This document shows positions 13,747-61,353 of a DNA stretch of 64,000 nt, piece by piece (positions within the stretch are counted from its first letter, which is position 1; each line of letters opens with the position of its first letter). Position numbers and translations under genes: made by a program. The notes under the pieces were generated by a model. That model was not told the origin of the DNA. It did not search any database and saw only the letters and a program-made list of their open reading frames with translations. This stretch comes from Lunularia cruciata (lineage: Eukaryota; Streptophyta; Marchantiopsida; Lunulariales; Lunulariaceae), in contig OX419757.1 of assembly GCA_948567375.1 (NCBI GenBank), positions 10,864,974 to 10,928,973 of the forward strand, given 5' to 3'.

Positions 13747-13851
13747 CCAAAGCCAAAGCTCATGCTAGGCATTCAAAGTTCTCCTTCATTCAAGTGTCCC
13801 AATATGAGTTTCCATTCTCCTATTTCTCTCCTCGGATTCGGTCTTTTACAT

Positions 13852-13864
13852 TGGTATCAGAGCA
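13852..13864 (+). promoter_or_regulatory. Primer binding site, initiator Met-tRNA type
   Basis: TGGTATCAGAGCA, one base after the 5' LTR. This is the standard plant retrotransposon site complementary to the 3' end of initiator Met-tRNA. Confidence 0.9.
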
Positions 13865-14121
13865 GGAATGGGATGGATGGAATATATGGACCACCAAATC
13901 CACTTCCACCGAACCATTGGGATTTGTGCATCCAAATACTACCCAAGCATTGTTTCACACAATTCATCACCTTACACTTTGGACAAGATTTTCTGCATAT
14001 GATCACCATATCTGAGGAACCCTTGGTGCTTCCGGTTGTAACTTATGGAGAACGGTGGACGTGTTATTTTTATGTGTTAATAAATTAGATAGATTGGGAG
14101 TGGTGTGATAGAGGAGCAACC

Positions 14122-18180: not shown

Positions 18181-18414
18181 AGTAACCTTCCTCTCCCACT
18201 TGATACCCAAGTTTGTAAACTTGCCCCTAATTGGATAGGACCCTTTGATATCACCCAAATTGTCTCTCTTGTTGCTTATTGTCTTGCCTTGCCTTGTCAC
18301 ATGCGTATCCATCATGTCTTTCATGTTTCCAAGTTGAAACCCTTTGTTCCTAACCCCTCTTCCTTTTCCTCTTGAGTCCAACCTCCTCCTCTTTCTATCC
18401 CTATCAATGATCAT

Positions 18415-18558
18415 GAGGAGTACAAAGTTGATCGTATCCTTGCACGTTGCCATATTCAACAAGGCCGTCACCAACATACTGAGTACAAGGTCCTTTGGAA
18501 AGGGTATCCCTTTCATGATGTCACATGGGAACCTCTTTCTCACCTCCACAATGCATAG
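18415..18558 (+). pseudogene. Chromodomain at the element 3 pol C-terminus
   Basis: The frame reads EYKVDRILARC, then EYKVLWKGYPFHDVTWEP, then LSHLHNA and a stop. YKVLWKGY...TWEP is the chromodomain signature. It follows the integrase C-terminal LKPFVPNP region and lies just upstream of the polypurine tract GCGGTGGGGGAA at 18611. This places element 3 in the chromovirus clade. Confidence 0.9.
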
Positions 18559-18624
18559 ACGGCCATCCAAGAATTCAAAGCTTCACTGGCGACGAGGACA
18601 TCACCAACTAGCGGTGGGGGAATA

Positions 18625-19050
18625 TGTAACAATAAGGAGTTTAGCGACAAAGTCAGTCGGGCTCATGAAATAGCACATAAGACAAAGTAGCCTAGAATAT
18701 TCCGGAAGTATCTCGGAAGCTTCTTGGGAAGCTTCTTGGTAAGCTTAGCTTGCACCTTAAGTAAAGAGCTTCTAGAAGGAAGCTTCTAGAAGCTTCCAAC
18801 TAGCTTAGCTTGCATGCCAAGTAGGCAACTTCTAGAAGGAAGCTTCTTGAGAAGCTTCCTAGTTAACTTGGCTTGCACTCTAAGAAAGCGGCTTGAGGAA
18901 GCTTCTTGAGAAGCTTCTCAAGTGCCTTGTATGCTACCTATAAATACCAAAGCCAAAGCTCATGCTAGGCATTCGGAGTTTTCACTCATTCAAGTGTCCC
19001 AATGTGAGTTTCCATTCTCCTATTTCTCTCTTTGGATTCGGTCTTTTACA
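18625..19050 (+). repeat. 3' LTR of element 3
   Basis: 426 bp, similar to 13485-13850 with an extra repeat of about 60 bp near 18750-18810. It ends GTCTTTTACA. Confidence 0.9.
18779..18796 (+). promoter_or_regulatory. Perfect four-unit heat-shock-element-like motif
   Basis: GAAGCTTCTAGAAGCTTC matches GAAnnTTCnnGAAnnTTC exactly and is preceded by TTCTAGAA at 18770-18777. It is present in the extra repeat of the 3' LTR. Binding by heat shock factors is inferred from the consensus only. Confidence 0.55.
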
Positions 19051-20960
19051 CCATTGTCTTTGAAGTACACCATCTGCTCCTTGGTAAAAAATAATATCCT
19101 CCACCATTGTGTAAGGTCTATATATTGCTACAAGGGCCTTCCTCTCCCTAGCATGCATCCCTTCTAGATAGTTACCTCTTGTCACAAAATCCACAATCTC
19201 CTTGTACTCCATAGGAACCTTTTGAGTGATTGAGATTATCATGAGCTCCTCATCTAGGAAAGAATGATCCACTTGATCATCTTCATCATGATCATAGACC
19301 CTAGATAACAAATCAGCATTTGCATGTTTCTTTCGTGGCCTATCCTCAATGATGTAGTCATACTCAAACAAGAGTATCATCCACCTTGCTAGTCTCCCTT
19401 CAACATTAAGCTTGTTAAAGATGTGCTTCAAATCCTTATGATCCGTGACAATGGTGGCTTTCCCTCCAATCAAGTAGTGTCTAAATTTCTTGAGACCAAA
19501 GATCCCTACCAATCCTCCTCTCTTCATGACAAAGTAGTTCTTTTTTATCAAAACCATTTGCCTACTAGCATAAGCTATTGGATAATCATGCCCATCTTGG
19601 TCTAATTGACTAAGAGTGCACCCTATAGCAATATTAGAAGCATCAATTTAAGGGATGAAAGGCTTAATCCAATCAGGTTTAGCAAAAATTGGAGCTACAA
19701 CAAGGGATTGCTTGAGCTCCTTAAAAGCTTTGAGAGCCTCCTTGTCCTCCAAAATCACCATGTAATCTACACCCTTCTTCATGTAGACGGTCAATGAATA
19801 AGCCTAGTTGGAAATTGAGAAGATGAACCTTCTATAGTATCCAACCATCTCCAAGAATTGGGATAACTTTGTCAAGCTTGAAGGGAATGGAAGGTCTGAG
19901 ATTTTCCTCACCTTCTCAAGATCAACTACTATTCCATCCTTGGAGATGATGTGTCCTAAAAGTAGACTTTCTTCACATCCAAAAATGACCTAAACCCTAA
20001 ACCCTAAACCCTAAACTTCTCAAGGTTGAGTGATGCATTTTCTTCATCCAAGTTTTGCAAGACCTTGATAAGGTGCTCAAAGTGCTCCTCCTTGCTCCCA
20101 TGGACACAAAAGTCAGCAATGAAGTCTCTCACAAATTTCTCTATGAAAATTTCAAATACCTTGTACATGAACCATTGGAATGTGGCTGGAGCATTGCAAA
20201 GCCCAAAAGGCATGACCTTCAAAGCATTAGTCCTCCAAGGTGTGGTGAATGTGGTGAGTTGTTGATGCTCTAGTGCAATCTTGATTTGGTTATATCCACT
20301 ATAACCATCTCCAAAACTATACCTCTCATGACGTGCAACTTCCTCCAAGATCTCATCAATGAATGGCAATGAGTAGTATCCTTCTTGGTAACATTGTTGA
20401 GCTTCTTGTAATCCATACATACCTGAAGCTTGCTATTCTTTTCTTTCACAATGACAATTGGAGATACTCATTTTCAAATTCTCCACTTCAAAGATAAATC
20501 CGGCCTCCTTAAGCTTATCAATCTCCTCCTTCACAACCAAAGATATTGGTGGGTTAATGCGATGCTACTTTTGGTGGATTGGTCTTACATGTGACTCCAC
20601 CTTTATCTTGTGCTCCTCAAAGGTTACTTCTTTCAAATCCTTGTAACTAAAGCAAACACATGGATAAACTTGCAGAAAATCTCTTCAAATCTCAACTTCT
20701 CCTCTTTGGTAACATTTGGGCCATACTTGAGGGTAGATAACATCTTCTCTATCTCCTCAAGTGTCAATCATGATTTATCTAGGTCCTTCAAAACCTCTAG
20801 CTTAGGTGCAAAATCCATAGCATACAAGGGATACACATCTGAATTAGATTCAGATTCATCTTGCTCCATGGATATCTCCTCTTCCATGGTTGTGTACAAA
20901 CCTGAAGCTCCTTCTTTAGAATTAGGTTCCCAATAATCAAAGATGGTGTATTTGAATGTG
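19051..20960 (-). pseudogene. RT and RNase H of element 2
   Basis: On the minus strand from about 20420: YYSLPFIDEILEEVA, RYSFGDGYSGYNQI, VMPFGLCNAPATFQ, then FIADFCVHGSKEEHFEHL (the usual DD is altered). RNase H and the connection follow at 19557-19051: KKNYFVMKRGGLVG, TIVTDHKDLKHIF, ARWMILLFEYDYIIEDRPRKKHANADLLSR. The end, near 19100, enters integrase (MVEDIIFYQGADGV). A telomeric repeat interrupts it at 19989-20016, and many stops are present. Confidence 0.85.
19989..20016 (-). repeat. Interstitial telomeric repeat (TTTAGGG on the minus strand)
   Basis: CCTAAACCCTAAACCCTAAACCCTAAAC on the plus strand comprises about four plant-type telomere units. It sits inside the RT coding region of element 2, between codons for NLEKF and the following conserved LxGHIIS stretch, where related elements have no such sequence. 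Confidence 0.95.
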
Positions 20961-21029
20961 AATTGTTTGTGGTGTTAGTCACAATAACTGTGACTCTATG
21001 ATTTGATGGCCCAATCACACTTTGTGTCA

Positions 21030-21458
21030 TTGATCAATTGTGCATGTTGCTCTCAACCATAGCCTCCCAAGAAGTAAGTCATAGCTTGAATCCGTCAAGA
21101 CTTGAAAAGTCATGAGATTTTGAATTCCCATAATTGAAACTGCCACCTTATCTATCACCTCTATTAGTTGAACTTGTTGTTTGTTTGCCATGCTCACCAA
21201 AAATGTTGAAGGTCAAGAGGGTATCATACCCAAATGTTTCATCAACCTTTATGACATGGTATTCAGTGCTGATCCTCTATCAACCAATGCATCCTTGATG
21301 TTGTGACCATTGACTCTCACATCAATCTTGGAGGAATATTCACAAGCCTCCCATGGTGTTGTCTTGGCCTCCACCACTCCCATTGATATTGGAGCTTTTG
21401 CCTTCTTCTTCCTCTTGCTCCTTGTAGAACTCAAACCACCTCTAAGCTCTTTTCTCAA
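21030..21458 (-). pseudogene. Protease of element 2
   Basis: Reads KIDVRVNGHNIKDALVDRGSALNTMS. The element 4 counterpart has LVDGGSPVNAMS, so the active-site region here has DRG instead of DGG (one G-to-A step). The downstream hydrophobic LLLG-type motif is in decayed sequence toward 21060. A Ser/Glu-rich linker continues toward RT. Confidence 0.75.
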
Positions 21459-22774
21459 GGTAGGGTCAAAGCAATAAAGTGGCCCACTATGATGTTAGCA
21501 TTGTGACTACTAACATCCTCCAACACATTGTAGTTCCATTGTTGCTTTGAAGTCAAGAAATCCTCCATTCCCAACTTCTTCCTTGGAGTCTTTGTTGTAG
21601 ATGGTCTTGAGGTGCGAGTGTTCCTAGTAGACATAGGAGCAACATTTCTTGGAGTAAATCCTTGAGAAAAGTAACCATCCTTCACAAAATGAGCTCTCTT
21701 CTTCTCTTGGGCTAAAAGCTCTAAATTAAGACCCTTGGAGTTTGAACACTCTCCCTTCTCATACTTGCTCTCAACCACATCTATGGATGCTATTCCCTTA
21801 CATTTTGTTGGATTAGGAGCCACTTGGGTTTCACTACCTCCCTCTTACCCTCTATTGGCTTCCTCATAACCCCTTCCTCCATGGTACATGGAATTTGGGC
21901 AATTCCTTTGGATATGGCTTCTTCCTCCACAACAAAAACAATTTCTATCATTAAAATTGTTGGTTGGTTAGCATTCTCTATATGGATTTTTTCTCCTAGA
22001 TCCTCTTCCAAAATTTTGATCCACCTCTCTCTTCTCCCATAGTTGCATCACATTGATCTTGAGATTTGCAAGTTGTTCTATGATGGTTTGAAGTGGATCT
22101 TTTGGTGGAGGTGCAAGAATTGGAGCAACACTACTTGTGGTGCAACCCTTGCCACCAAAATATCAGAAGTTCTCCCATATTTGTAGCCTTGAGGAGGATG
22201 CATAACCTCTTTCACTAACAAATCACTCTCATCTCCTTCCAAACTCTCCTCCATACAAATTGTGATCTTGATAATTTCAACCTTGGAAGATGGTTTCTCA
22301 TATCTCACCTTGCTTTTGATTTTTGGTCTCAATCCTCTCACAAAATTATTGGTGATCATTGCTGCTATGCCAATCATAGTAGTCTACACATCATCTCCAC
22401 CCTTCTTCAACACTATGCAAAATCTAGACTCTAATATTTCTACTCTTTCCACATAGACTCTCACATTCTCTCCATCTCCTTGCTTGAGAAAGATAAATTC
22501 AATCATCAATCTCTCATAACTCACATTTGGAAGGAAGTTCTCAATGAGTGCTGAAGTCAAACTCTCCCAAGACTTTCTTGCCAACCTCTCCTCTCTCTCT
22601 TTTGGTATTCTAACTCATACCATGTGAGTGTTGCATCCTCAAAGAAATCTGGTATAATGAAGCCCACTTATTCTTCCTCTTCTCATTATTTTCTATGCAA
22701 GTTCTCTTGAAATCTCTCACAAAGACCTCCATATTTTCTCCATCCTTGCCAAAGAAAACCGGAAGTTTCTCCAT
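21459..22774 (-). pseudogene. gag of element 2
   Basis: The ATG at 22774 starts MEKLPVFFGKDGEN, matching element 4 gag at 42781. The capsid-like part is followed by a single zinc knuckle near 21900-21945 (C-FC-C-GGRS-H-IQRN-C) and a Ser/Thr-rich tail with TPRKKLGMEDFL. Several stops and frameshifts. Comparison with element 4 gives most of the original frame. Confidence 0.8.
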
Positions 22775-22978
22775 CTTAACCCCTCACTATTTTTTTTTCT
22801 CTTAATTTTTCTTTTTTCTCTTTCTTTTCTCTCACTCTATAGCTAATAGAGTATGTACATGACTAATACCATTAGAGAGTAATACACCCTAGTGAACATG
22901 AAAAGTTCAAGTTGCTCAAAGATTTCTATAGCAACATGAAATCCTAGCGTGCACATTAATCAAACCCTCATGGATAGT
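22775..22978 (-). other. Spacer between gag and the upstream ORF of element 2
   Basis: AT-rich stretch with poly-T/C runs at 22790-22830 on the plus strand. The equivalent in element 4 is 42565-42780. No domain. Confidence 0.5.
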
Positions 22979-23512
22979 CTATCCATAAGTTGAAAATTTA
23001 TCTCCATCACTAATCTTGAGACTAGCTGATGAAAGTGGTAATATTTCTATAGTTGTACTAAAACTCTCTCCAATATCCTTCACCAAAGTATCCAAGAGTG
23101 CTTTTACTCCACTACACTCATGTCTTTTTGGAAATCCTTCAACTCCACAAACCTCACACAACTCCTTGGTCTTAGATCTTCTACCTCCCAATCTTGTTGG
23201 AGAAGAAGGTCCAACATGCAAACCCAAGTCAAGTAAGCCTCTCCTCTCCCTCAATCTCTTGCTCTCAAAGGTCAATGGATATGAAATTTTCTTATATCCC
23301 TTCTCTTCACATAGAAGGCACTTAGACTCACTCCTTCCTCCAAGTGGTGTAGGTTTTTTGATCCTCTCAACACTCTCTTCAAATTCTATTCTAAACTCTT
23401 TTTTTCTCAAATCCACCCCTACAATCATTGCAAACCCTTGGGAAACCTTACATAGTCTCAATTTACACTCTTGATGACCTCCCATGTTCCCAAGATGAAT
23501 CTTAACACTCAA
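22979..23512 (-). CDS. Extra ORF upstream of gag (element 2 copy)
   Basis: 177 residues, open throughout, homologous to 42064-42564 in element 4. It occupies the place between leader and gag, where ordinary Gypsy elements have no gene. Conserved parts are the N-terminal HLGNMGGHQ, VDLRKKEFRIEFEESVERI, TPLGGRSESKC, then ESKRLRERRGLLDLGLHVGPSSP and CEVCGVEGFPKRHEC. The first knuckle reads C-LL-C-EEKG-Y-KKIS-Y, so it has lost His and the last Cys that element 4 keeps. I do not recognise a described family. Confidence 0.65.
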   Translation of the reverse strand: MSVKIHLGNMGGHQECKLRLCKVSQGFAMIVGVDLRKKEFRIEFEESVERIKKPTPLGGRSESKCLLCEEKGYKKISYPLTFESKRLRERRGLLDLGLHVGPSSPTRLGGRRSKTKELCEVCGVEGFPKRHECSGVKALLDTLVKDIGESFSTTIEILPLSSASLKISDGDKFSTYG

Positions 23513-24328
23513 ACATGCTTTTTGTTATTCTCAAACTCCTCATGCATGAGATCTCAACTCTACACAATTGACCTTTCCTCACAATGTCACTCAAATCTCT
23601 CAATTTGTATATCACAGTCCTCTAAAATTTATCACTCTTCATCACAACTCTAGGGTGTCCTTCACTGCAAAATTGAGCCATTTGGCCTCAACACCTTTTT
23701 ATTCAGCACACATATTTCAGGTTTGGTTTGAAAACCACTCCCTCACTTCAAAAACTCATAAATTTTTGTGCAAAAATGATCTCTCTCTAATTTTTATGTC
23801 AACATGTATGATACAATGCACTTAATTTTCTTGAAAACTTTTAGAACAATTCACTAAAAAATGAAGAAATGGTAAACTCTACACAATTTTCCTAAGAGCA
23901 TGTAGGTGCGGGAGTAGTTTACCCTATCAATTAAAAAAAATTCTAGACCAATGCACATAGTAGCTCTCACAATAATTTCAAATATTCTATCTGAAAGATA
24001 ACCTAAGCTATTATGTGTAGACATTTAAATTCCAGATCTTAAAGTTGAGATTTTACCCAAAAATCACCTTAATCTCCAAAATCTACAATCCACCTCACAC
24101 AATCTCTCCAAATCCTCTCATGTGTACAAGATATAAAAAATCACCTCAAAGATATCATAATCAACTACAGTGTATACAAATAGATCCCAGTTCTCCAACA
24201 TAAGTTTAGCACTCTCCTCCCCTAAAGTTCTCTCCAAGTGAACTCTCATGGCCTCCTTCTATCTAATATACAAGTGTATGTGGATATTATCTTGCTTTCT
24301 AGAGAGGTCCCAACAATAGAACCAAAAA
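23513..24328 (-). other. Leader of element 2
   Basis: Non-coding by appearance, between 5' LTR and the first ORF. The primer site adjoins the LTR (GGTTCTATTGTTGGGACC on the minus strand, near 24305-24322), with TTTTT before it. Short ORFs on either strand lack domains. Confidence 0.6.
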
Positions 24329-25019
24329 TGTGAGTTGCCTTGTCTCTCACTCAAGATAAACCTCTTATGGTTTATTATGGTAGCACACCATGGACTAAGA
24401 AGGTAAAGAACCCCAATTCCATCTTACTCCTCCAAGGCTAACACTCCAAGACTCAAGACATTGTTCATTCAAGAACTCAATGAGAGAGATAGTTGCAAAT
24501 GAAAGGATGATGAGTACCTCCTCACTCCTAGTTTATATACTTGTGTAATAGTTACACACCAAAGTTATTAATTATTAGAGTAACTCAAGTTATTGGGCTA
24601 AAAGTCAAATAAAATCAAAAAGTATAAAGGAATATCCATCCACATGGGCATATTCCACTAAACATGTGATCTTATCTTGACCCAACCACTAAGTCAAGGA
24701 TTCTTTCACATGGACTATCCTTGGACTATAGAAGAATCTAAAACAAAAAGGCTTGCGTGCCAAAGAGTTATCAACTCTTTCCTCAATGCTAAGCATCTAG
24801 AAATAATATCAAGTCAACACACTAGAATCAAAAATAGTGGTGCTCATCTTTTCCACTTCCTCTAAAGTAAGGTCCCTTCTATCTTAGTTATGACTAACTT
24901 TAGCTAATCATGACTAATATAAAACCATACTTTATCTCTATATAAATAATATCTCTCAAGTACTAGTAATACCAAACTAAATATCACAATACTACATACA
25001 TACACAAATGGGTGCTACA
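24329..25019 (-). repeat. 5' LTR of element 2
   Basis: 691 bp, matching 11638-12329 with scattered differences, so the insertion is not very recent. Confidence 0.85.
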
Positions 25020-26009
25020 CGCCAAACTTTGAAAGGTGTTGTTTTGCTAGTTTGTCTTACACCTAGAGAAATGCCTCGTTGCAATGAAGGAGTGAATTCT
25101 TCTGGGGCATCAGGTGTCAAGCCGAGGTATTGAAGTAGATATTGAGAAGGAAAAAATTTGTTTCAGCTTTGGAATCCCCTAAAAACATCCGGGAGCTGAG
25201 AGTCTTCCTAGGACATGTCGGATACTACAAACGCTTCATATCAAACTATGCGGTGGTTGCTGCACCCCTTACAAAGCTTCTGAAGAAATCTGAAGACTAC
25301 TTGTGGGAAGCAGAACAATAAGAAGCTTTCCAAGTATTGATGAAGAAACTGGTTAGAGCACCCGTTATGAGGGCCCCAAATTGGGATGCCCCTTTTCATG
25401 TGTATGTGTACATTTCATCCATGGCAATCAGAGTAGTCTTAAGTCAGAAGGACAAAAAGAAGAATGACTACTAGATTTATTATGCCAGCCAGCAATTATT
25501 AGTTTCTGAGGAGAACTATTTGACATTTGAAAGAGAGGCACTTGGAATGGTTTATGCTTACAAGAATTTTTGCCATTAGTTGTTGGGATACTAGTTTGTC
25601 TTCCATGTTGATCATTACGCATTGCAACATTTGGTCAAGAAGGCATATTTTGTCAGGGAAAATTGCAAGGTGGATATTGTTATTACAAAAATTCACATAC
25701 ACTATACAATTAAGAAAGTGAGCTTTGCATTCGAATGCGGACTTCCTATCCAGGTTAGAAACTCAAGACCAAGACTTGGAAGTTGATGATTGATTTCCTG
25801 ATGAAGATCTATATCATTTAATGACTATGCGAAGTACAAGGTATGCGGGCCAAATACCACTATCTGCATACTTGTCATTGTCCTGAGTGGCTGGACCCAG
25901 AGCAGAAGGCAGTCTTCGTCAGGAAGATGAGACCGTACCAGCTAAAACACAACATCTTATTTAAGATAGGCAAAGAAGACTTACTTATGAGATGCTTGGA
26001 GGCATACGA
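25020..26009 (+). pseudogene. Element 1 continued: RT end, RNase H, integrase start
   Basis: Continues the RT frame cut at 11637. ELRVFLGHVGYYKRFISNYAVVAAPLTKLL is the RT/RNase H connection, followed by FHVYVYISSMAIRVVLSQ (RNase H start), YLTFEREALGMVYA, FHVDHYALQHLV and, at 25843-26010, KYHYLHTCHCPEWLDP, YQLKHNILFKIGKEDLLMRCL, the start of integrase. The frame ends at about 26010 and the rest of the element is missing. In-frame TAA in WEAEQ*EAF fits CAA to TAA. Confidence 0.8.
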
Positions 26010-37204: not shown

Positions 37205-37896
37205 GGTAACACCCATTTGTGTATGTGTGTGGTATTGTGATATTTAGCTTGGTATTACAAGTACTTGAGAGTTATTATTTATATAGAGATAAAGGATGGT
37301 TCTACATTAGTCATGATTAGCTAGAGTTAGTCATAGCTAAGATAGAGAGGACTTTACTTTAGAGGATATGGAAAAGATGAGCATCACTATTTTGGATTCT
37401 AGTGTGTTGACTTGGTATTATTCCTAAGTGTTTGGCTTTGAGGGAAGAGTTGAGAACTCTTGGGCCCGCAAGCCTTTTTGTTTTGGATTCTTCTATAGTC
37501 CAAGGATAGCCCATGTGAAGGAATCCTTGACTTAGTGGTTGGGTCAAGATAGGATCACATGCTAGTGGAATATGCCTATGTGAATGGATATTCTTTTATA
37601 CTTTTTGACTTTACTTGACTTTTAGCCTAGTAACTTGAGTTATTCCAATAATTAATAACTTTGGTGTGTAACTATTTCACAAGTATATAAACAAGGGGTG
37701 AGGAGGTACTCATCATCTTTTCATTTTGCAACTATCTCTCTCTCATTGAGTTCTCTAGTGAGCAATGTCTTGAGTCTTGGAGCGTTAGCTTTGGAGGAGT
37801 ATGATGGAGTTGAGGTTCCTTGCCTTTTTAGTCCATGGTGTACTACCATAATAGCCATCAAAGGTTCATCCTGAGTGAGAGACAGGCCGGCTCACA
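37205..37896 (+). repeat. 5' LTR of element 4
   Basis: 692 bp, inverted copy of 11638-12329. It starts GGTAACACCC (TG changed to GG) and ends GGCTCACA. The primer site TTTATGGTTCCGTTGCCAAG follows at 37897. Confidence 0.85.
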
Positions 37897-38066: not shown

Positions 38067-38830
38067 TGTGACAACCCGGCAAATATCACTTTTGCGGTAA
38101 TCGGGTAAGTAAAGTTCGTTCCCGCAGAGATACGAGTCAAAAATGTCCAAATATGAAGCAAAGTAACAATTTCAGTTCTTCTTGAGTTCTTCTTTAGTCT
38201 CTCAGGTAGAAACCACACCCAGAAGAGAGTAACAAGCACTGACTCGCAGTCTTGTCACAAATTCACACTCCAAAATCACAACTCCATCAATTATTTCCAA
38301 ACAATCTTGATTTGTGATGATTCAGGCTCTCCCGAAAACGGCACTTCACTGCAAAACGACTTCGCCTCAGAATTGTGTTCCACCCTTCCACTGAAGGCAC
38401 AACTTCCTCGATCAAAATTGCTTCACATCAACTTCGCACTGCACTCACAAATGCAGAATACTACCAACACTACAATTCCTCTCATATCTGTCAAGGCATT
38501 GCTTCGATTGCACTTCAGTCAGGATCAAACACATAGAATGAAGATCAAGGCTGTGGAATCCAACATCCAACAAGCACTCTGACTTGCACTTTGAATTTCT
38601 CCAAACATTCACAAACATAATTACAAAGTTGATACTCGGAATCAAGCTCAAGCGACGAGCACTGCTTCCCAACACTTTGCTTTATCTATTCTCAGAAATA
38701 ATGAGCACTGAACAACAAGTTCCTGCGAATGCCACTCTTAAATAGTGAAGCAATCGACAATTCTAACAACTATACCGTTCTACAACAACTATTCTAACCT
38801 GCAGATCCAAAATGACAATGCACCTCTTCA
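38067..38830 (-). repeat. 3' LTR of element 5A
   Basis: About 764 bp. On the minus strand it begins TGAAGAGGTGCATTGTC, just after the purine-rich GAAGGGGCAGATA, and ends GGTTGTCACA. Same family as 49499-50260 and 7021-7690. The start is inferred from TG and the purine tract because no second LTR is available. Confidence 0.7.
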
Positions 38831-38860
38831 TATCTGCCCCTTCAAATCTCAAATCGGTTA

Positions 38861-39994
38861 CTAATCCAATCCGATGTCTACTTCTTCCTCGGCTTTCAAA
38901 CCCGAACCCGAAGTAATCTTACTTCCTACTGCATTTTCCTCGGGTTTCATATCTTCTACTTCTTCTACTAGATTTAACAATTCTCTTTCCTGATCTGAAA
39001 TTGTACTAATAGGTAATCTATCTAACTCTTCATCTTTCGACCCACTCTTCTCTACTATTCCTGAGACCAACTCCGAAGACATTTGGATCCCGATGTTATC
39101 TACGTCGGGTTTTGCTTTAACATCCTGCCGAAGCTTTTCTAACTCTATTCTTACTAAGTCTAATCTAATGGCAATATTGTCTTCTACTTCTAAGATCTTC
39201 CTATCTACACGAGTTCTCAACTTAATCAACAAAGCATTTAGATCTGTATCTTTCGCTTGCCTCCGCCTTGTCTCCTGCACTAACAACTTCAACTCGTGCA
39301 GACGCGTTTCTTCAATTCGAACGCTGGCCTCTGTACTTAGCATCGCATTTACTCTAAGGACTATTTCCTGCAATGGCTCTAATCTTGTCTTCCTTTCTCG
39401 TTCCCGATCTGCAAGCCATTCCTCTCTGTACATCGCCAACTCCTCTTCAAATTCGGCCTTCACCGCGTCACTCTCTTTCTCCTTTTGTGCAACCTTTTCT
39501 TCCTGATTACGAAGTAAGTCTCGTAATCTCTCTTCTTCTCCATATCTCGTAGCCAACTCTCGCTGCCAGAGTTGCTTCTTCTCCTCCATACTCTCCATCA
39601 CTCGATCGAGCTCTTGATCCTTCGATGCTACTCTCGCCATAGCATGGATGAGCTCTACTCTTGAATCAGCAAACTGCTGCTTCAAGATTTCATGCTCCGC
39701 TACCTATCTCTCCCTTGCAATGTCACTCTTTCTCGCAAGATCCTCTCGATAGCTCAATTCTCTCCTCAGGTCTTCAATTACCTGACTTCTCTCCACTACC
39801 TCCAATTGCAGTACTTCTCTCTCCTTCTCACCTCGGGTCATACTCTTCTTCAACTCCGAGTTTTCTTCTTCTAATCTTGCCAACACCTGCAATACAGTTT
39901 TTACCTCCGGACATGTGGACTGCATCTCCTTCTTCTTATGTTCTAACTTTACCAACAACGGACACACCACTTGGTCCTCCCTCTCGAAAAGCAT
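38861..39994 (-). pseudogene. Coiled-coil ORF of element 5A
   Basis: About 377 codons from 39994 with one TAG (39706-39704) where the 5B copy has CAA. The whole product is heptad-rich: VCPLLVKLEHKKKEM, ARLEEENSELKKSM, RVELIHAMARVASKDQELDRV, EEKKQLWQRELATRYGEEERL, RVDRKILEVEDNIAIRLDLV, then an acidic C-terminus with ISDQERELLNLVEEVED. Its first 58 bases overlap the end of the methyltransferase in another frame. In 5B it forms the C-terminal part of a longer gag-like protein, so a role in particle assembly is possible, but this is inference. Confidence 0.7.
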
Positions 39995-40859
39995 GAGAGC
40001 CTGGGAAACTCATGAGTGTGGGAAATGCAGCTCTAGGCTGTCCAACTAGGTTCACCACTGCCATGGGTGACCTATTAGCCACTACCACTATCTGAGACTG
40101 ACGCCCAACATCCAAGATATCATCAACAAGAATGTGGTCCAGTCGCTGAATCCCATCATAAGCACGCTGTAGAACCTCTCTGGGTAAGAGGTTTGTCCAC
40201 CAAAGATGAAGACGATGAGCCCGTGATCCCACTCTGGCTGCATCTAACAATACAGCAGGTCCCATCCATGAATGGACCTGATGTGTACTCGCCACCACTC
40301 TAGTGCGAGAATCACCCATCAATGGAACGTTCTCCAAAAGGTAAGCTGGAGAAACAGACTGATGAACCTGGAGATGTCGTAGTATCCGTAACATCTCCCA
40401 AAACACACCAGAACGAGGATCCTGAAGACCCAAACCGCGGCCCGCACGTGTATGTCCCTGACATGGCCATCCAGAAATCACCAAGTGAATAGGCCCATGT
40501 CTCTCTAGGTCATGCGCCCCCAGTAAGGAAATGTCTCCTGGTAAGGCCTTTTGGTAACCTCTGACTGCTGACATGGGTAATAACTCCGGATACCGATAGG
40601 CCAAGTGTGCCACATGATGTAGAGAGACTCGCCTAGCAGTCTCATCTCTCTCTACATACAAGTACCTCTGTACTCGGATACCCGCCTGTAACACCGCAGC
40701 TAGTTCGGTGCTAATCCCACCAAACAACTCCAATAGGCATATCCCCTCTACTGGATACTGCCAAGCAATGAGTGTGGTATCTTGAGGTGTCAAAGCAATC
40801 GCCTCTGGAGGCTCATCCTCACACTCATCTCCTGATGGTACGAAGGCTCCACTCCAAGC
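39936..40859 (-). CDS. C5 cytosine DNA methyltransferase domain in a retrotransposon
   Basis: In frame with the protease ORF, directly after its TAG. There is no ATG near the start (the first conserved codons include TTG), so it was probably part of a protease-methyltransferase polyprotein. Counting from TTG at 40793: motif I LLELFGGIS (20-28) with VERDETARRV following (48-56), motif IV HLVISGWPCQGHTRAG (103-118; catalytic Cys 111), a GLQDPRSGVFWEMLRIL helix, motif VI YLLENVPL (151-158) and motif VIII RVGSRAHR (187-194). AFPTLMSFPGSHAFREGG follows. The frame then runs into coiled-coil DNA and stops, so motif X and the C-terminus are missing or replaced. The motif IV wording looks closer to bacterial-type than to DRM or DNMT3 enzymes. 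It would transfer methyl to cytosine C5 if active. Confidence 0.85.
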   Translation of the reverse strand, partial: AWSGAFVPSGDECEDEPPEAIALTPQDTTLIAWQYPVEGICLLELFGGISTELAAVLQAGIRVQRYLYVERDETARRVSLHHVAHLAYRYPELLPMSAVRGYQKALPGDISLLGAHDLERHGPIHLVISGWPCQGHTRAGRGLGLQDPRSGVFWEMLRILRHLQVHQSVSPAYLLENVPLMGDSRTRVVASTHQVHSWMGPAVLLDAARVGSRAHRLHLWWTNLLPREVLQRAYDGIQRLDHILVDDILDVGRQSQIVVVANRSPMAVVNLVGQPRAAFPTLMSFPGSHAFREGGPSGVSVVGKVRT

Positions 40860-41921
40860 CTACTGCACCAACTGATCTGCATGCTGCTGCAATGCCTCCT
40901 CTGAACTCCACAATGGAACATCCAAGGTGGATGGAACAATCCCACTCGTACTCCATAGCCGAGTGATCTCCTCTGGTACTGGAGTATCCTCTGCATGGGC
41001 GTTCCCCTCCAACAAGTCACTAGGCCAAGTAACTGCACCGCTGAAAGCCAAAACTGATGCTGCCATGGTCCCGGACTGTAGTGAGCCAAGACTGCCACTA
41101 CTAAAGCGTACTAGTAGGCGACATACCCGTCCCTCACTAGAGTGCCAACCAGGTCTATAAGAGGCTGTCTCCTCCCAATAGTCAATGCTGAAACCCATAG
41201 GGTATAACACTGCTCCCCCAACTAGCACATCATAGAACTCAGCTATCGTCGCAATAGCCTGAGCTCTCACCACCGAGCTATCAGTCGGATGACCAGGCTG
41301 AACCTGGACAACAAGCTCTCCACGTGTGATGTACTGTGTCGAACCACCACCAAGAGATGTCTGGATCTGAAATGGACACCTCTCCACATCGGTCTTCCGT
41401 AACTCCAGACCAACAACTGCAGCCTTCCCCAACATAAGGGGCTGCGCACCAGAGTCTAACAAGACTCTCTGTGGTGTATAGACCTTCCCTGAAGGTCCCA
41501 CTAAACGAAAGATCCCCCTCTGGTTATCCAATAGGAGAACACCAGGTGTAAACCGTGCTCTCTCAAAGGCCGGTCTAGCTGGCAACTCCTCCAGTCTAGC
41601 CGCTGCTGCCTGCCATAAACCACTGGTCGCTGAACGGATCCCATGCTCCTCAACCAAGTCAGCTCCACTACCAACCACCTCTGCTCTAGTAGTAGGAACT
41701 GCACCATCCCTACTCTCACACAACGTGGCAGCCAACCGGAACACTGGGGCTGGGTCAACTCCCAATGTAAACATGTCACTGGCTGAAAATAAAGGATGCC
41801 GCATAATCAGCTGAGCCGCCTCCAACATCATGCTAGACTCAGTTTGTGTAGTAGCAGGTGGCTGACTAGCAGGTACTCCATCACCACCTACCACACCTGC
41901 ACTGGGACGTCTAGGAACCAT
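40860..41921 (-). CDS. Retropepsin-like aspartic protease ORF of element 5A
   Basis: 353 residues from ATG 41921. Residues 1-30 are low complexity and 30-145 unassigned. The active-site loop RVLLDSGAQPLMLGK is at 152-166 (Asp156-Ser-Gly) and the second conserved strand AEFYDVLVGGAVLYPMGF at 227-244, as in retrotransposon aspartic proteases. DYWEETASYRPGW follows. The TAG at 40862-40860 follows LVQ and the same frame continues into the methyltransferase. A longer reading with extra N-terminal residues enters element 4 leader and is discounted. Expected role is polyprotein cleavage. Confidence 0.8.
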   Translation of the reverse strand: MVPRRPSAGVVGGDGVPASQPPATTQTESSMMLEAAQLIMRHPLFSASDMFTLGVDPAPVFRLAATLCESRDGAVPTTRAEVVGSGADLVEEHGIRSATSGLWQAAAARLEELPARPAFERARFTPGVLLLDNQRGIFRLVGPSGKVYTPQRVLLDSGAQPLMLGKAAVVGLELRKTDVERCPFQIQTSLGGGSTQYITRGELVVQVQPGHPTDSSVVRAQAIATIAEFYDVLVGGAVLYPMGFSIDYWEETASYRPGWHSSEGRVCRLLVRFSSGSLGSLQSGTMAASVLAFSGAVTWPSDLLEGNAHAEDTPVPEEITRLWSTSGIVPSTLDVPLWSSEEALQQHADQLVQ

Positions 41922-42063
41922 GGATGTTGTAATATGAGTGAAATAGGAGGAATGGAGACTGTAATATACTAGTTGAGAGATATGAGTGAAATTGTGAGGA
42001 ATGGTCAATTCTGCAAAGTGGAGATCTCATGCATGAGGAGTTTGAGAGCAACAAAAAGCATGT

Positions 42064-42780: not shown

Positions 42781-44231
42781 ATGGGGAAACTTCCGGTTTT
42801 CTTTGGCAAGAATGGAGAAGATGTGGAGGCCTTTGTGAGAGACTTTGAGAGAGCTTGCATAGGAAATAATGAGAGGACAAAGAATGAGTGGGCTTCATTA
42901 TTACCAGATTTCTTTGAGGATGCAGCACTTACATGGTATGAGTCAGAATAACAAAAGAGAGAGAGGAGAGATGGGAAAGAGGAGTCTTGGGAGACTTTGA
43001 CTTCAGCACTCATTGAGAACTTTCTTCCTGATGAGAGTAATGAGATATTGATGACTGAGGGTAACCTTTCTCAAGCAAGAAACTGGAGAGAAAGTGAGAG
43101 TCTATGTGGAAAGAGTGGAAAAGTTAGAGTCCTGATTTCGCATAATGTTGAGGAAGAGTAGGGATGATGTGGAGACTACTATGATTGGCATAGGGGCCAT
43201 GCTCACCAAGAATTTTGTGGGATTTTGAGGCCACAAATGAGAAGCAAGGTGAGATATGAGAAACTTTCTTCCAAGGTGAAGCTATCAAAATTGTAATTCG
43301 TATCGAGGAGAGTTTGGAAGGAAATGAGAGTGATTTGGTGGTGAAGGACGTTGTGCATCCTCCTCAAGGTTACAAGTATGGTGGAACTTCTGATACTTTG
43401 GTGGCAAGGGTTGCACCACAAGTAGTAGTTGCTCCAATTCTTGCACCTCCACCAAAGGATCCACTTCAAACCATCATAGAACAACTTGCGGATCTCAAGA
43501 TCAATGTGGTGCAACTATGGGAGAAGAGAGAGGTGGATCAGAATGTAGGGAGAGGGCCTAGGAGTTATGGAAACTATCCATATAGAGGAGGCCAACCAGC
43601 CAATAATTTCAATGATAGAAATTGTTTTGGTTGTGGAGGAAGAGGCCATATCCAAAGGAATTGCCCAAATTCCACTTACCATGGAGGAAGGGGTTATGAG
43701 GGAGCCAATAGAGGGAAAGAGGGAGGTAGTGAAACCCAAGTGGCTCCTAATCCAAACAAAGGTAACGGGATAGCATCCATAGATGTGGTTGAGAGCAAGT
43801 ATGAGAAGGGAGAGTGCTCAAACTCCAAGGGTCTTTATTTGGAGCTTTTGGGACAAGAGAAAAAGAGAGCTCGTTTTGCAAAGGATCTTCACTCTTCTCA
43901 AGGATTTACTCCAAGCACGGATACTCCTATATCTACTAGGAGAACTCACACCTCAACACCATTAACAACAAAGACTCCAAGGAAGAAGTTGGGGATGGAG
44001 GATTTCTTGATTTCAAAGCAAACAATGGAAAACAATGGAACTACAATGTGTTGGAGGATGTTGGTAGTCACAAGGCTAATATCACAGTGGGCCAATTGAT
44101 TGCTTTGAACCCTACCTTGAGAAAGGAGCTTAGAGGTGGTTTGAGTTCTACAAGGAGCAAGAGGAAGAAGAAGGCAAAAGCTCCAATATCAATGGAGGTG
44201 GTGGCTGCCAAGCCAGCACCATGGGCGGCTT
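42781..44231 (+). pseudogene. gag of element 4
   Basis: The ATG at 42781 opens MGKLPVFFGKNGEDVEAFVRDFERAC, a retrotransposon gag start, then WASLLPDFFEDAALTWYES and a TAA (CAA to TAA likely). From 43314 the frame is open again: a linker, then the CCHC knuckle CFGCGGRGHIQRNC at 43623-43664, then a basic and Ser/Thr-rich tail with TPRKKLGMEDFL. A frameshift near 44020 leads to YNVLEDVGSHKANITVGQLI and the protease. Confidence 0.8.
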
Positions 44232-44916
44232 GTGAATATGCTTCCAAAAATTGATGTGAGAGTGAATGGTCCCAACATCAAGGATGCACTTGTTGATGGA
44301 GGATCACCAGTAAATGCCATGTCAAAAAGGTTGATGAAGAAGTTGGGTATGATACTCTCAAGACCTTCAACATTTGTGGTGAGCATGGCAAACAAGCAAC
44401 AAGTTAGACCAATAGGAGTGATGGATAAAGTGGTAGTTTCAGTTATGGGAGTTCAAAATCTCATGACTATCCAAATCTTGAAGGATTCAAGATATGACTT
44501 ACTTCTTGGGAGGCCATGGTTGAGAGCAACATGCACAACTAATTGATGGCACAAAGGTACTTGAGGATTGGTCCATCAAACCATAAAGTCACAGTTCGTG
44601 TGACTAACACCACCAACACTTCACATTCAAAAACACCATCTTCTAATTATTGGGAATCGGGTTTTGAAGAAGGAGCTTCAGGTGTGGACACAAGCATGGA
44701 AGAGGAAATTTCCATGGAAAAGGATGAATCTGAATCTGATTCAGATGTGTATCCTTTGTGTGCTATGGAGTTTGCACCTAAGCCAAAGGTTTTGAAGGAC
44801 CCTGATAAATCACCATTGACACTTGAGGAGGTAAAGAGAAGGTTAGCTACCCTCAAGTATGGCCCAAATGTTACCAAGGAGGAGAAGGTGAGATTTGAGG
44901 AGATTTTCTGTGATAG
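44232..44916 (+). pseudogene. Protease and pol linker of element 4, truncated
   Basis: IDVRVNGPNIKDALVDGGSPVNAMSKRL carries the active-site Asp (LVDGGS), and the second part reads LKDSRYDLLLGRPWLRA, the conserved hydrophobic-Gly motif. The linker 44543-44916 is acidic (MEEEISMEKDESESDSD). The coding ends mid-sentence at a switch to LTR sequence. RT is absent. Confidence 0.8.
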
Positions 44917-45310
44917 CCCAAGGATAGCCCATGTGAAGGAATCCTCGACTTAGTGGTTGGGTCAAGATAGGATCACATGCTAGTGGAATATGCCCATGTG
45001 AATGGATATTCTTTTATACTTTTTGACTTTACTTGAATTTTAGTCTAGTAGCTTGAGTTACTATGGTAATAAGTAACTTTGGTGTGTAACTATTTCAAAA
45101 GTATATAAACAAGGGGTGAGGAGGTACTCATCATCCTTTCATTTTCAACTATCTCTCTCATTGAGTTCTCTAGTGAGCAATGTCTTGAGTCTTGGAATGT
45201 TAGCCCTGGAGTAGTATGATAGGTTGGGGTTCCTTGCCTTCTTAGTCCATAGTGCACTACAATAATAGCCATCACAGGTTCATCCTGAGTGAGAGACAGG
45301 CTGGCTCATA
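44917..45310 (+). repeat. 3' LTR fragment of element 4
   Basis: Matches the right part of 37205-37896, from AGGATAGCCCATGTGAAGGA to the LTR end (GGCTCATA). The join lies inside the LTR without its first 300 bases, indicating recombination or deletion. Confidence 0.85.
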
Positions 45311-47238: not shown

Positions 47239-49468
47239 ATGGGCTCGAGGGAGAAGGGAAGAGAGTCGGATTGGAGACTAGTACTCGGGAAGGAAGCAGG
47301 CACGGAGCAAGGTGCCACGTTCTTGGAGAATGGAGAGATAGCCAAGGAAACCCAAGAAGTGAGAGATGCATTCTTGTCAAAGCGGACGAAGAATGGGTAC
47401 AAAGTGGAGAGTTACAAAGATCTTGTCAAGAGGGGAATTGTGAGTGCTCTAATGGCAATCTTGAAGCCGGAGAGAACAACCTATGTGCTGAAACACCAAG
47501 CGGTGTTCTTTCACAAATTGTTTGCAGGAGAACCAATCAATTGGGCAAGGTGTTTCCATGGGAGAACACGACAAATGGTGTTAAATCTGCAAGATAAATT
47601 GCCTCCTCACTACATCATGTTGTTTGCAGCACACTTCTGCCTTGGGTTGAATTTGCTGAACTCGGATAGTGTTGCATTTCCATCTCGATTTAAGAAGGGA
47701 GGTCGATGTAGAGGAGCCGCAGTACATCTTACAAATTAGAAGCATAGATAAGTACTACAAGAAGATGGGGAAGAATGTGGAGATAGAAGTGAGTAATCCA
47801 AAATCGAAGAAGAGAAGTCGGCAGGGCAAAGCCGAAGACAAGACAAAACCTTGGAAGACCAAGAGAGGAAACTTGAGGCAAGGAATGGTGGGGATCGAGT
47901 CAGAAGACAAAGACTTGGAAGGTGAAGCCGAGTGCAAGTCCAAAGATTCGGAACGTGAGGAGGAGCCCAAGCTAACGCTACAAAGTGGAGATACTAGTAG
48001 CGATAGCAATGAAGGTGGAGAAATGACATCGGTGCCAGTTGCTGTAGAGGAGGAAGAAGAAGTGTAGGCAAAGACCAAGGCCGAGGACAACATGAAGTTG
48101 GAGGATGAGATACTCAAGGCCAAAGAGAAGAAGATCGCAGTTCAGAGGGGAGTTTGCTCGAGATGCAAGGTGAAGTGTGATGCAGGTCCAAGTAAAGCAA
48201 AAGAAGACGTGAACAAAAGCTCGGGAAGCAAGGCGTCAGTTCCAATACGAAGACGGCAACAAAGAAGGCAAGTATTGGATGAACAAGAAGTGAGAAGGGA
48301 GATTGCTATGCAAGAGGAGGTAGTGGCGAGTGATGGAGTAGAGTACCTGTGGGATGTCGTGTGTCCACTGTTGATGAAATTGGAGCACAAGAAGAAGGAA
48401 ATGCAGTCATTGTGTTCAAAAGTGAAGATAGTGTTGTAGGTCTTAGTGCAATTAGAAGAAGAGAACTCGGAGTTGAAGAAAATCATAACCCAAGGTGAGG
48501 AGGAAAGTGAAGTACTACAAGCGGAGGCAGTAGTGAAGACTCAGGTAATTGAAGACCTGAAGAGAGAAGTGAGATATTGAGAGGAGCTTGTTAAGAAGAG
48601 TGACATAGCAAGGGAAAGACAAGTAGCAAAATATGAGATTTTGAAGCAGTAGTTTGCTGATTCAAGAGTAGAACTTATCCATGCTATGGCAAGGGTAGCA
48701 GCAAAGGAACAAGAGCTTGATAGGGTGATGGAGAGTGTAGAAGAGAAGAAGCAACTCTGGCAAAGAGAGTTAGCAGCATGATATAGGGAAGAAGAGAGAT
48801 TACAAGAGTTACTTCGTAATCAGGAGGAGAAGATTGTAGAAGAAGGAATTCTGAGAAGGAGAAGGAAACGGTGAAAGCTGAGTTCAAAGCAGAGTTGGCG
48901 ATGTATAGGGAAGATTGGCGATCGAGAGCGAGAAAGAAAAATGCGATTGGAGCCGTTGAAGAAGATTGTCCTCAAGATGAACGTGATGTTGAGTATAGAG
49001 GCCAGTGTTCAAATTGAAGAGACAAGGTTGCACAAGTTGAAATTGTTGGTGCAAGAGACAAGGCAAAGATAGGCGAAAGATATAGATTTGAATGAGCTAC
49101 TGATAAGTCTCAGGACTCATGTAGATAGGAAGATATTAGAGGTAGAAGATAATATCACGATTAGATTAGACATAGTAAAGTTGGAGATAGATAAAATTTG
49201 GAAGGATGTTAGAGCCAAACTCGAAGTAGATAACATAGGAGTACAGATGTCTTTGGAGTTACCATCCGAGACATTGGAGAAGAGTGGGTCGAGAGATGAA
49301 GATTTAGAAGGGTTACCCACTAGTGTAATTTCAGATCAAGAAAGAGAATTGCTGGATCTGGTAGAAGAAGTAGAAGAAGTGAAACCCAAAGATAGGGTAG
49401 TAGGAAGTAAATTTACTTCGGGTTTGGGTTTGAAAGCCAATGACAAAGTAGACATCCGATCGGATTAG
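47239..49468 (+). pseudogene. gag-like plus coiled-coil protein of element 5B
   Basis: The head (47239-47700) reads SYKDLVKRGIVSALMAIL, then TTYVLKHQAVFFHKLFAGEPINWA and PPHYIMLFAAHFCLGLNLL, a helical domain I take as gag-like. A frameshift near 47700 leads into a Lys/Glu-rich linker (EIEVSNPKSKKRSRQGK), an acidic stretch, a Cys cluster GVCSRCKVKCDAG at about 48148-48185, then the coiled coil shared with 5A. Stops at 48437, 48578, 48650, 48779 and 49070 face CAG, CGA, CAG, CGA and CAA codons of 5A, all C-to-T. A second frameshift lies near 48850. Not translatable as one protein now. Confidence 0.7.
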
Positions 49469-49498
49469 TAACAGTTTTGAGATATGAAGAGGCAAATA

Positions 49499-50260
49499 TG
49501 AAGAGGTGCATTGTCATTTTGGATCTATAGGTTAGAAAAGTTGTTGTAGAACGGTATAATTGTTAGAACTGTCGATTGATTCACTACTTAAGAGTGGCAT
49601 TTGTAGTCAAATGTTGTTTAGTGCTTCTAATTCTGAGAATAGATAAAGCAAAGTGTTGTGAAGCAGTGCTCGTTGCTTGAGCTTGATTCCAAGTATCAAT
49701 TTTGAAATTGTGTTTGTGAGTGTGTAGAGAAATTCAAAGTGCAAGTGAGTGTGCTTGTTGGATGTTGGATTCTGCAGCCTTGATCTTCATCCTATGTGTT
49801 TGATCTTGAGTGAAGTGCAATCGAAGCAATGCCTTGACAAATCTGAGAGGAATTGTAGTGTTGGTAGTATTTTGCATTTGTGAGTGCAGTGTGAAGTTGA
49901 TGTGAAGCAATTTCAATCAAGGAAGTTGTGCCTTCAGTGGAAGGGTGGAACACAATTCTAAGGCGAAGTTGTTTTGCAGTGAAGTGCTGTTTTTGGGAGA
50001 GCCTAAATCATCACAATCAAGATTGTTTGGAAAGATTTGATGGAGTTGTGATTAAGAATGTTAATTCATGACAAGACTGCAAATCAGTGCTTGTTACTCC
50101 CTTCTGGGTGTGGTTTCTACCAGGGAGATTAAAGACGCAACCAAGAAGAACTGCAATTGTTACTTTGACTTTGTATTTGGACATTTCTAAATCATATCTC
50201 TGCATGAACAAACTTTACTTACCCGATTACCGCAAAAGTGATATTTGCTAGGTTGTCACA
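49499..50260 (+). repeat. 3' LTR of element 5B
   Basis: About 762 bp, from TGAAGAGGTGCATTG to GGTTGTCACA, preceded by purine-rich GAGATATGAAGAGGCAAA. Matches the 5A LTR almost end to end and the right part of the element 1 LTR. Confidence 0.75.
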
Positions 50261-60315: not shown

Positions 60316-61353
60316 TCACCTCTTGGAAAGTTTAACCCTTTTCCCTGCATAAAGCAGACAATGTGTAGCACCATCTAGCTCTTGGACATTGTAGGTGGCA
60401 TTCTCATGAACTTTGGTAACAACAAATGGACCATGCCAATGGCGGGCAAACTTCTTGAGGGTGAAATGATGTATGTCTAGGCTGTTATCAGAAATCAGAA
60501 CCCAGTCCCCTTCATTGATAGGCACCGGTCGCAGCCAGTGAGTCTTGTCAAAGTATACCTTGTTCCTCAGCCGTGCTTCCTTCACCTTCTCGCGTGCCAC
60601 TTGTATTTTTTGTGGTGTCAAGTTAAAGTGCTCAATTCTGCACAAAATCAATTCCTTGGTAGACACATTATCCTCCCACTGAATAGTTCTCCAACTAACA
60701 ATGTCCTCCTCCATAGGCATAATAGGAGTGCCCTGATACTAATTCAGCAAGCGGCATTCCAGTCACCGAGCTGCAAGTTAACCTATCAGCCATAAGCAAT
60801 AAGGGCAGCAAATCAGGCCATCTATATATCTCACCTTGGCAAGCCTTCACCAAAGCATTCACTATCGGTGGATGACCTTGTTCACTCCTACTGTTGGCTT
60901 CCGGATTGTAGGTGATAGTCAGGTTCAGTTTGATGTTGAACTTAGCAAAGAAGTCAGCTGCTTCCCTTGCATCCAACTCTCCTCAATCTGCCCTCATCCG
61001 GTAGAAACATCTGTACCTGGCAATGATATCCTCTAAGACAAACCGACACACCTGTTGGGTATGTGTAGATGACAACGCTCTTCCTTCCACATAATTAAAC
61101 AGATCTTCCCTGGCTAGTACTAGATATTTAGCTCCTCGAACTCCTAAAGGCATATGAACCAAGTCCAAAACCCACTAAAATGGAGATTCAGCGGAAAAGT
61201 AGGTTTCAAACCATCTTTTTGTCTTACTTTGGAGTAGATCTGACATATTTCACAAGTTTCCATATATTGCCATACCTCTATATAAATACCTTGCCACCAG
61301 TACAAACCCCGGATGTGCTTGTATGTACCCTGAACCCCACAATGCTTGGCAGC
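60316..61353 (-). pseudogene. Integrase of element 6b
   Basis: Minus strand. The zinc-binding part spans 61360-61230 (ELHDA, AKHCGVQGTY ... YMETCEICQ). The core begins DLVHMPLGVRGAKYLVLAREDLFNYVEGRAL (61168-60983) and continues FFAKFNIKLNLTITYNPEANSRSEQGHPPIVNAL (60976-60695). The C-terminal domain at 60720-60316 has RNKVYFDKTHWLRP, DWVLISDNSLD, FARHWHGPFVVTKVHENATYNVQELDG and ends KRVKLSKR. Stops and frameshifts separate the parts. Confidence 0.85.

Follow-up and report, generated by a model that had tools for sequence, protein, structure and literature searches.

A Ty3/gypsy-type retrotransposon family carrying a Dnmt3-class DNA methyltransferase in the liverwort Lunularia cruciata

The window analyzed in this study is a stretch of 64,000 nucleotides from the liverwort Lunularia cruciata (contig OX419757.1 of assembly GCA_948567375.1, positions 10,864,974 to 10,928,973 of the forward strand). 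It contains a 1,954-bp fragment in which an aspartic protease domain (PR) precedes a C5-cytosine DNA methyltransferase (MTase). The parent of this fragment is a 9.6-kb element that is almost certainly a Ty3/gypsy-type retrotransposon carrying an MTase of the Dnmt3 class. Judged by its sequence, the copy in the window is truncated and dead, and the interest sits in its family. DNA methylation is normally directed at transposons; this family keeps a de novo-type MTase of its own, in thousands of copies, in a land plant.

Full copies of the element contain two open reading frames (ORFs). ORF1 consists of a gag-like part, the protease and the MTase and ends at an in-frame UAG, beyond which ORF2 consists of reverse transcriptase (RT), RNase H, DDE integrase and PHD finger domains. 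With A and B denoting the repeat parts, the element reads in the order A1, a site complementary to A, ORF1, UAG-CAR-YYA, ORF2, polypurine tract, B1, GC, A2 and B2. In profile searches, ORF2 scored above the cut-off for RVT_1, RT_RNaseH, Integrase_H2C2 and rve, neither ORF matched a phage-integrase (tyrosine recombinase) family, and ORF1 gave no ADD or PWWP match. The protease found no match in the PDB by sequence, and a fold search was used instead. A first-pass annotation of the window had proposed a retrotransposon-borne C5 MTase in frame behind an aspartic protease, and this proposal is right for the family, in which the PR-MTase unit is followed by RT, RNase H and integrase.

The family is abundant. 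The searched genome (565.8 Mb, 74 contigs) contains 3,209 matches to the MTase catalytic pattern, 2,860 to the junction of A with the primer site, 4,362 to the A-B junction and 1,639 to the B-GC-A junction, the last pattern being rich in decaying CG sites; up to two mismatches were allowed, and reversed-pattern controls gave zero matches. If most copies were full length, the family would make up about 5% of the genome. A Lunularia cruciata assembly is described as 580 Mb in size and enlarged by bursts of Ty3/gypsy elements (PMC9985172). Full-length copies with RT and integrase were found in this genome. The idea that the MTase is a single-copy capture of a host gene is rejected by the 3,209 pattern matches and by the RT, RNase H and integrase located in the same elements. 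Detailed comparisons used 20 copies picked for long open frames and then 12 more, all drawn from 123 PF00145 hits that also include non-family matches such as L001-L004. The 3' flank of one copy, L019, directly adjoins the 3' part of another copy, and L019 therefore probably lies inside a relative in the same orientation.

The MTase retains motifs I, IV, VI, VIII and X in one line without rearrangement. Among the C5 MTases of the PDB, DNMT3 is the closest both by profile and by predicted fold, and on these two measures the family enzyme belongs with DNMT3. The DRM class was rejected because its rearranged motif order is not found and because DRM2 chains matched more weakly than DNMT3A, in two stretches, the best of which covered 60-117 of 310 positions. 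The catalytic PCQ is present in 31 of the 32 copies and reads PC-stop in the remaining one, the EN of motif VI is present in all 32, and PCQ, EN and R-x-R occur jointly in 28. Across 11 aligned members from green lineages and metagenomes, the catalytic Cys is conserved in ten, and the Glu of ENV and R-x-R are conserved in every one. Purifying selection on the MTase is detected at non-hotspot sites (p 0.003, from 32 copies with the changes in two copies excluded).

The stop codon between ORF1 and ORF2 is TAG in 32/32 copies, the next codon is CAG in 32/32, and the hexamer after the stop fits CAR-YYA in 31/32. An open pattern gave 989 exact matches, the first 100 of which contain TAG (95), TAA (2) or a sense codon (3) at the stop position and YY in 99 cases; CAG was fixed by the pattern itself. 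UAG followed by CAR YYA constitutes the type I readthrough signal, as in TMV (PMC11166343). The family stop is likely to be leaky, with type I readthrough suggested by its context. Given readthrough, the gag, protease and MTase parts would be the major product.

The repeats of the element are split. A1 is 449 bp long, and B1 is 107 bp long. The B1-A2-B2 array is present in 18 of the first 20 copies (the other two are cut after B1), A1 in 17 and all repeat parts in 16; in L025, an inverted match to its own start replaces A2-B2. The flanks of ten copies were fetched, and two copies (L010 and L016) were dropped because no start was found at the expected place; eight were read in addition to L011, whose own stretch contains it whole. 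The element begins with TGTCAC and ends with ACGACA (TG..CA), and perfect 4-bp target duplications flank all nine copies whose two ends were read. A1 and A2 are 97.3-99.3% identical in eight copies, which indicates recent insertion on the usual plant rates. A polypurine tract lies directly 5' of B1 in eight of eight copies and is identical in six. B1 and A2 are linked by GC in seven copies and by GT in one, and the palindrome GACAGCTGTC is intact at B1-GC-A2 in five of the eight. The palindrome GACA-GC-TGTC resembles an integrase site and lies inside the repeat.

A putative priming site lies directly after A1. Starting at the last base of A1, 15 nucleotides are the exact complement of A 257-271 in six of eight copies, and 13 nucleotides are complementary in the other two; the longest complement in 2,000 letter shuffles of A was 11 nucleotides. 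This complement would place the 5' end of the RNA approximately 257 nucleotides into A. Inspection by eye of the sequence that follows A1 found no TGG-type tRNA primer site, although no tRNA search was run. Under the standard rules of reverse transcription, B-GC-A would be the long terminal repeat (LTR) of a self-primed element, and A2-B2 would be an end-to-end LTR junction. The spacing of landmarks was surveyed over the first 25.8 Mb of one chromosome, counting exact hits. An A-B junction lies 8-16 kb downstream of 34 of the 57 A-primer sites (at 9.25-9.4 kb in 22 of those), and the other 23 have no A-B junction at either place compared. The junction expected from the other opening product accompanies none of the 57 by exact hits. 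Among 21 B-GC-A sites, A-B follows 455-463 bp on in 18, and the primer site comes next in none. Half of 100 exact A-B sites have no exact upstream landmark, a class in which solo and decayed copies are indistinguishable. The element is not a canonical LTR retrotransposon; it shows TG..CA ends and a short duplication but lacks identical full LTRs at both ends. Membership in the DIRS/PAT group is likewise rejected because a tyrosine recombinase is missing and target duplications are present.

Relatives of the element occur in other green lineages. By MTase sequence, the closest named proteins belong to Marchantia polymorpha (59-73% identity); by RT, they include proteins of Calypogeia fissa at 80% and of Riccia sorocarpa at 86%, the latter covering 38% of the query. 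MTase-bearing relatives were found in Marchantia, Sphagnum, Closterium, Klebsormidium, Tetraselmis and metagenomes, and they fall into two layouts. In layout I, the MTase precedes the RT, as PR-MTase in Marchantia and Sphagnum, PR-MTase-RT-RNase H-integrase in Closterium and Klebsormidium, and MTase-RT-RNase H-integrase in Tetraselmis. Layout II, RT-RNase H-MTase-integrase-PHD, is found in metagenome proteins (P0023-P0041 and others). In Calypogeia and Riccia, the RT-to-integrase side alone was seen. The K. nitens protein P0090 contains all five domains of layout I, and the two-ORF split is suggested there too by a pair of gene models, P0081 (PR-MTase) and P0123 (RT-RNase H-integrase), whose tags are consecutive and whose contigs are equal in length. 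These three proteins belong to the same family as the Lunularia element and presumably represent the published KnitGypsy-Dnmt3. A scan of IMG/VR for DNA of the relatives returned matches at 73 loci, at 25-50% identity.

In a quick maximum-likelihood RT tree with midpoint rooting (126 rows), all 50 MTase-bearing rows are among the 112 on one side of a branch (SH-aLRT 99), together with the Lunularia family and rows of Klebsormidium, Closterium, Calypogeia and Tetraselmis. Neither MTase nor PHD was detected in the 14 other gypsy rows of this tree. The 62 rows without a detected MTase on the 112-row side mostly start too near the RT to hold one, and absence is therefore not established for them. 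The tree took 126 of the 166 RT-matching proteins; short RT stretches were excluded, including all those of Marchantia, Sphagnum and Riccia. In the MTase tree, built from 68 of the 117 MTase-matching proteins plus DNMT3A, the Lunularia family is placed with Marchantia (support 100), and one layout I row joins the 23 layout II rows (support 86). Twelve proteins were left out of this tree by hand (11 Marchantia fragments and P0002), and others, including those of Sphagnum and Tetraselmis, were too short or too long. The spread over liverworts, a moss and green algae speaks for an origin older than capture in one charophyte lineage, unless horizontal transfer occurred.

Two further features of the relatives were observed. 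A Closterium query returned 49 proteins, 38 of which are Closterium gene models (among P0042-P0093), many with RT domains, and the catalytic loop reads GWECQ instead of GWPCQ in the three Closterium proteins whose MTase was printed. Residues 1601-1881 of P0029 form a C-terminal domain after the PHD finger that is conserved in 14 relatives, including Tetraselmis P0175 and P0176. This domain has no Pfam match in P0029; by eye, it contains DPWAGTGT and TSPWF and looks like a second MTase of the adenine or N4 type.

What could a DNA MTase do for a transposon? We propose that most ribosomes stop at the UAG and thereby produce the protease and MTase in Gag-like amounts, whereas the RT-integrase-PHD part would be a minor readthrough product. 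Since the MTase would be made in amounts like those of Gag, every particle would carry it. The RNA would start inside A, and its 5' end would fold back, pair with the site that follows A1 and so prime the minus strand in the manner of Tf1, a step that we consider probable. Standard reverse transcription would then yield LTRs of the form B-GC-A, and their end-to-end joining at A2-B2 would generate circular cDNA. The integrase would open one LTR at GACA-GC-TGTC, leaving TG..CA ends and split repeats; opening of a circle at the palindrome seems to us an even question. De novo methylation of the newly made DNA by the MTase may take place inside the particle or as the DNA inserts, and copies would thus arrive marked like host DNA, with the PHD finger steering the integrase to chromatin. 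That the enzyme acts on element DNA is a tentative proposal, held at slightly below even. Transitions from the commonest base, given as site-by-copy counts over 20 copies, number 525/9,919 at CG, 699/18,006 at CHG and 334/57,004 at CHH sites and 249/80,105 at A/T sites. Given the excess at CG and CHG, the copies are probably methylated heritably in these two contexts. Taken as a whole, the combination of leaky stop, self-priming, circle and self-methylation is moderately favored, as an explanation drawn from sequence. A wider reading is doubtful: the elements would form a green clade older than land plants, in which an integrase cut at the palindrome in the LTR of a circular cDNA has taken the place of ordinary integration by LTR ends, a Dnmt3 made at the level of Gag methylates the circle before insertion, and split repeats are the shared condition for gaining and keeping DNA MTases (adenine MTases in DIRS elements and Dnmt3 in SymbioDIRS and this clade).

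The repeat structure could also be produced without B-GC-A LTRs. A circle ligated on a splint has been proposed for DIRS/PAT elements. Applied to the Lunularia family, the RNA would run from A1 to B2, the cDNA ends would be ligated on the internal B1-A2, A2-B2 would be inherited, and the integrase would cut the new B2-A1 junction. This route would naturally explain why cutting is confined to the new junction and why a single layout is observed, and the A-coding-B-A-B layout is shared with DIRS elements (PMC5890265). It requires, however, an RNA that begins with the first base of A1 and extends through B2, whereas the 15-nucleotide complement points to a start approximately 257 nucleotides into A, and a polypurine tract immediately 5' of B1 is in keeping with standard LTR synthesis. 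We regard the splint as the less likely route, and as the rival to self-primed LTR synthesis.

The role of the enzyme is open to other readings as well. The MTase may act on host chromatin or methylation, slowing or disguising the family or altering silencing genome-wide, as a by-product of thousands of copies. The 3,209 pattern matches favor such an effect, which is raised for Symbiodinium in the Discussion of PMC5890265, and the five MTases listed for Marchantia are of the MET, CMT and DRM types with no DNMT3 (PMC5784723), so that the element could supply the only Dnmt3-type enzyme of a liverwort cell. In Marchantia itself, retroelements may be the sole source of such an enzyme. Nevertheless, the enzyme shares its frame with Gag and protease, which favors action inside particles, and we consider a host target rather unlikely. 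Still less probable is an MTase that persists as a passenger without a present catalytic role, as a structural spacer in the Gag-protease polyprotein. Two points speak for a passenger. Animal DNMT3 enzymes have PCN where the family has PCQ. The Klebsormidium enzyme gave no methylation in a yeast assay, a result that its authors call inconclusive (PMC5890265). A passenger is difficult to reconcile, however, with the joint retention of PCQ, EN and R-x-R in the Lunularia copies and of the catalytic residues across green and metagenome members, with purifying selection at non-hotspot sites, or with layout II, in which the MTase occupies another place in the polyprotein and is still kept. Finally, the window itself might contain an independently mobile protease-MTase chimera that has an LTR of its own, given that the fragment lies between 400-bp direct repeats that are 92% identical (37495-37894 and 44913-45308). 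This is extremely improbable because the fragment begins and ends inside the 9.6-kb element and its downstream junction is found a single time in 566 Mb (the upstream junction was not searched).

Our proposal of self-priming, a circle and self-methylation also faces evidence that weighs against it, beginning with the PCQ and the yeast result above. A two-LTR circle would contain the palindrome twice, yet the product of a single one of the two openings is seen, and a simple two-LTR circle model does not explain this one-sidedness. The palindrome of HIV-1 is located at the LTR-LTR junction, whereas that of the family is inside the LTR. C-to-T drift is enough to preserve the YY of the stop context, and host enzymes alone could explain the CG and CHG decay, as in any plant transposable element. 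Selection on the MTase is weak when all sites are counted (31 synonymous and 35 nonsynonymous shared changes, p 0.049), and the copies tested had been chosen by PF00145 hit or long frame. The grouping on one branch comes from a single quick tree, rooted at its midpoint, that included 14 other gypsy rows, and horizontal transfer between green lineages may have contributed to it.

The fragment in the window occupies 39973..41926 on the minus strand and corresponds to positions 3169-5134 of L011, a copy of 9,593 bp (blastn, 96.6% identity over 1,966 columns). This identity to a copy of a family that numbers thousands means that the signal is not due to chance. At the coordinates given in the first-pass annotation, a plus-strand reading gave nothing, and plus-strand frame 1 is full of stops. 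A minus-strand ORF (42008-40860) contains the retropepsin-type domain, LLDSGAQP...YDVLVGG (41046..41465), and ends at a TAG (40860..40862), beyond which the unchanged frame enters the MTase domain (39973..40751) with motif I, the catalytic PCQ of motif IV (40458..40466) and the ENV of motif VI (40326..40334), all on the minus strand. PF00145 matches this domain significantly, at 33.1 bits against a cut-off of 22, and the Dnmt3 class is assigned from the profile of relatives and the model of a longer copy. The protease-MTase frame was thus described correctly, with motif I, PCQ, ENV and the single TAG, but the TAG is a decayed Gln codon (CAG to TAG), since the four other copies printed there have CAG. 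It is rejected as a functional leaky stop because the stop of the family is located approximately 1.4 kb further on, approximately 0.5 kb past the truncation. The copy is indeed truncated, as had been noted: it stops at 39973, and the ERERAMGF...LGQAMDLN block, the last conserved block and the end of the catalytic domain, is consequently missing. The junction with unrelated sequence (39970..39973, from the alignment and the junction pattern) matches the genome once at up to three mismatches, in the window itself. Retroelement sequence and an LTR had been described as following the frame; beyond 39973 these are unrelated neighbors, a coiled-coil-like ORF lies there, and blastn of the whole copy against the window matched nothing besides 39973..41926.

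The surroundings of the fragment are repetitive. An inverted pair of 1.9 kb with 83% identity (38067-39970 and 48356-50260) meets the MTase-fragment junction at its edge and includes the coiled-coil-like ORF (38861-39685, minus strand). The 400-bp direct repeats, possibly the LTR pair of another gypsy-like element, enclose two ORFs recognized by eye, one gag-like with CCHC (43314-44099) and one retropepsin-like (44232-44546). Other gypsy elements are represented by pieces of RT, RNase H and integrase at 11074-25706 and 61240-61344; these pieces are 24-41% identical to the Dnmt3-gypsy family, except for one 19-residue piece at 58%.

The family offers a natural experiment on the effect of self-methylation on a transposon, and the leaky stop, self-primer and palindrome make the question experimentally definable. 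Marchantia, a culturable model liverwort, has MTase relatives at 59-73% identity. If the host has no DNMT3 of its own, as listed for Marchantia (PMC5784723), the element would be its only Dnmt3-type enzyme.

Known systems share parts of this organization. Tf1 and sushi are Ty3/gypsy elements that self-prime from an RNA 5' end complementary to a primer site directly after the 5' repeat, as proposed here, but they have two plain LTRs and a chromodomain, whereas the Lunularia family has split repeats, a PHD finger and an MTase. DIRS, PAT and Ngaro elements also have split direct repeats; they use a tyrosine recombinase instead of a DDE integrase, and to our knowledge they make no target-site duplication. 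Animal DNMT3A and DNMT3B resemble the family enzyme in motif order, profile and predicted fold and differ in having PCN in place of PCQ; ORF1 has no ADD or PWWP hit, and a PHD finger is found on the integrase instead. Some DIRS elements carry an adenine methyltransferase (PMC5890265). SymbioDIRS-Dnmt3 of dinoflagellates likewise combines a Dnmt3 with A-coding-B-A-B repeats, and two of its copies methylated CG de novo in yeast (PMC5890265). It has a tyrosine recombinase and a DIRS-type RT, in contrast to the DDE integrase, Ty3/gypsy RT and target duplications of the Lunularia family. A 2025 survey places DNMT3 members in LTR Copia and DIRS elements of streptophytes and dinoflagellates (PMC12344493). 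Among the titles and abstract openings listed, with the subscription literature mostly outside, no Dnmt3-bearing element was reported in a land plant.

The precedent of MTase-carrying retrotransposons mentioned in the first-pass annotation does exist, and the nearest one found is KnitGypsy-Dnmt3, the K. nitens Gypsy elements with Dnmt3 and DIRS-like repeats described in 2018 (PMC5890265). Their MTase has a Ka/Ks below 0.2, and their copies are fewer than those of Symbiodinium (PMC5890265). The main text of that paper, whose figures and supplements may show some of these features, is silent on PHD, split direct repeats, read-through, palindrome, protease and frameshift; its sole "duplication" concerns LINEs, and its sole "stop codon" concerns premature stops in Symbiodinium. 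The two families share the Gypsy domains, an unrearranged Dnmt3 in the coding region, DIRS-like repeats and purifying selection on the MTase, but the Lunularia family resides in a land plant and has thousands of copies. Thus, the Lunularia family is of the same kind as KnitGypsy-Dnmt3, and what is new is its abundance in a land plant, the type I stop context that puts the enzyme on the gag side, the PHD finger of the integrase, the self-primer, the target duplications and the split repeats with their palindrome.

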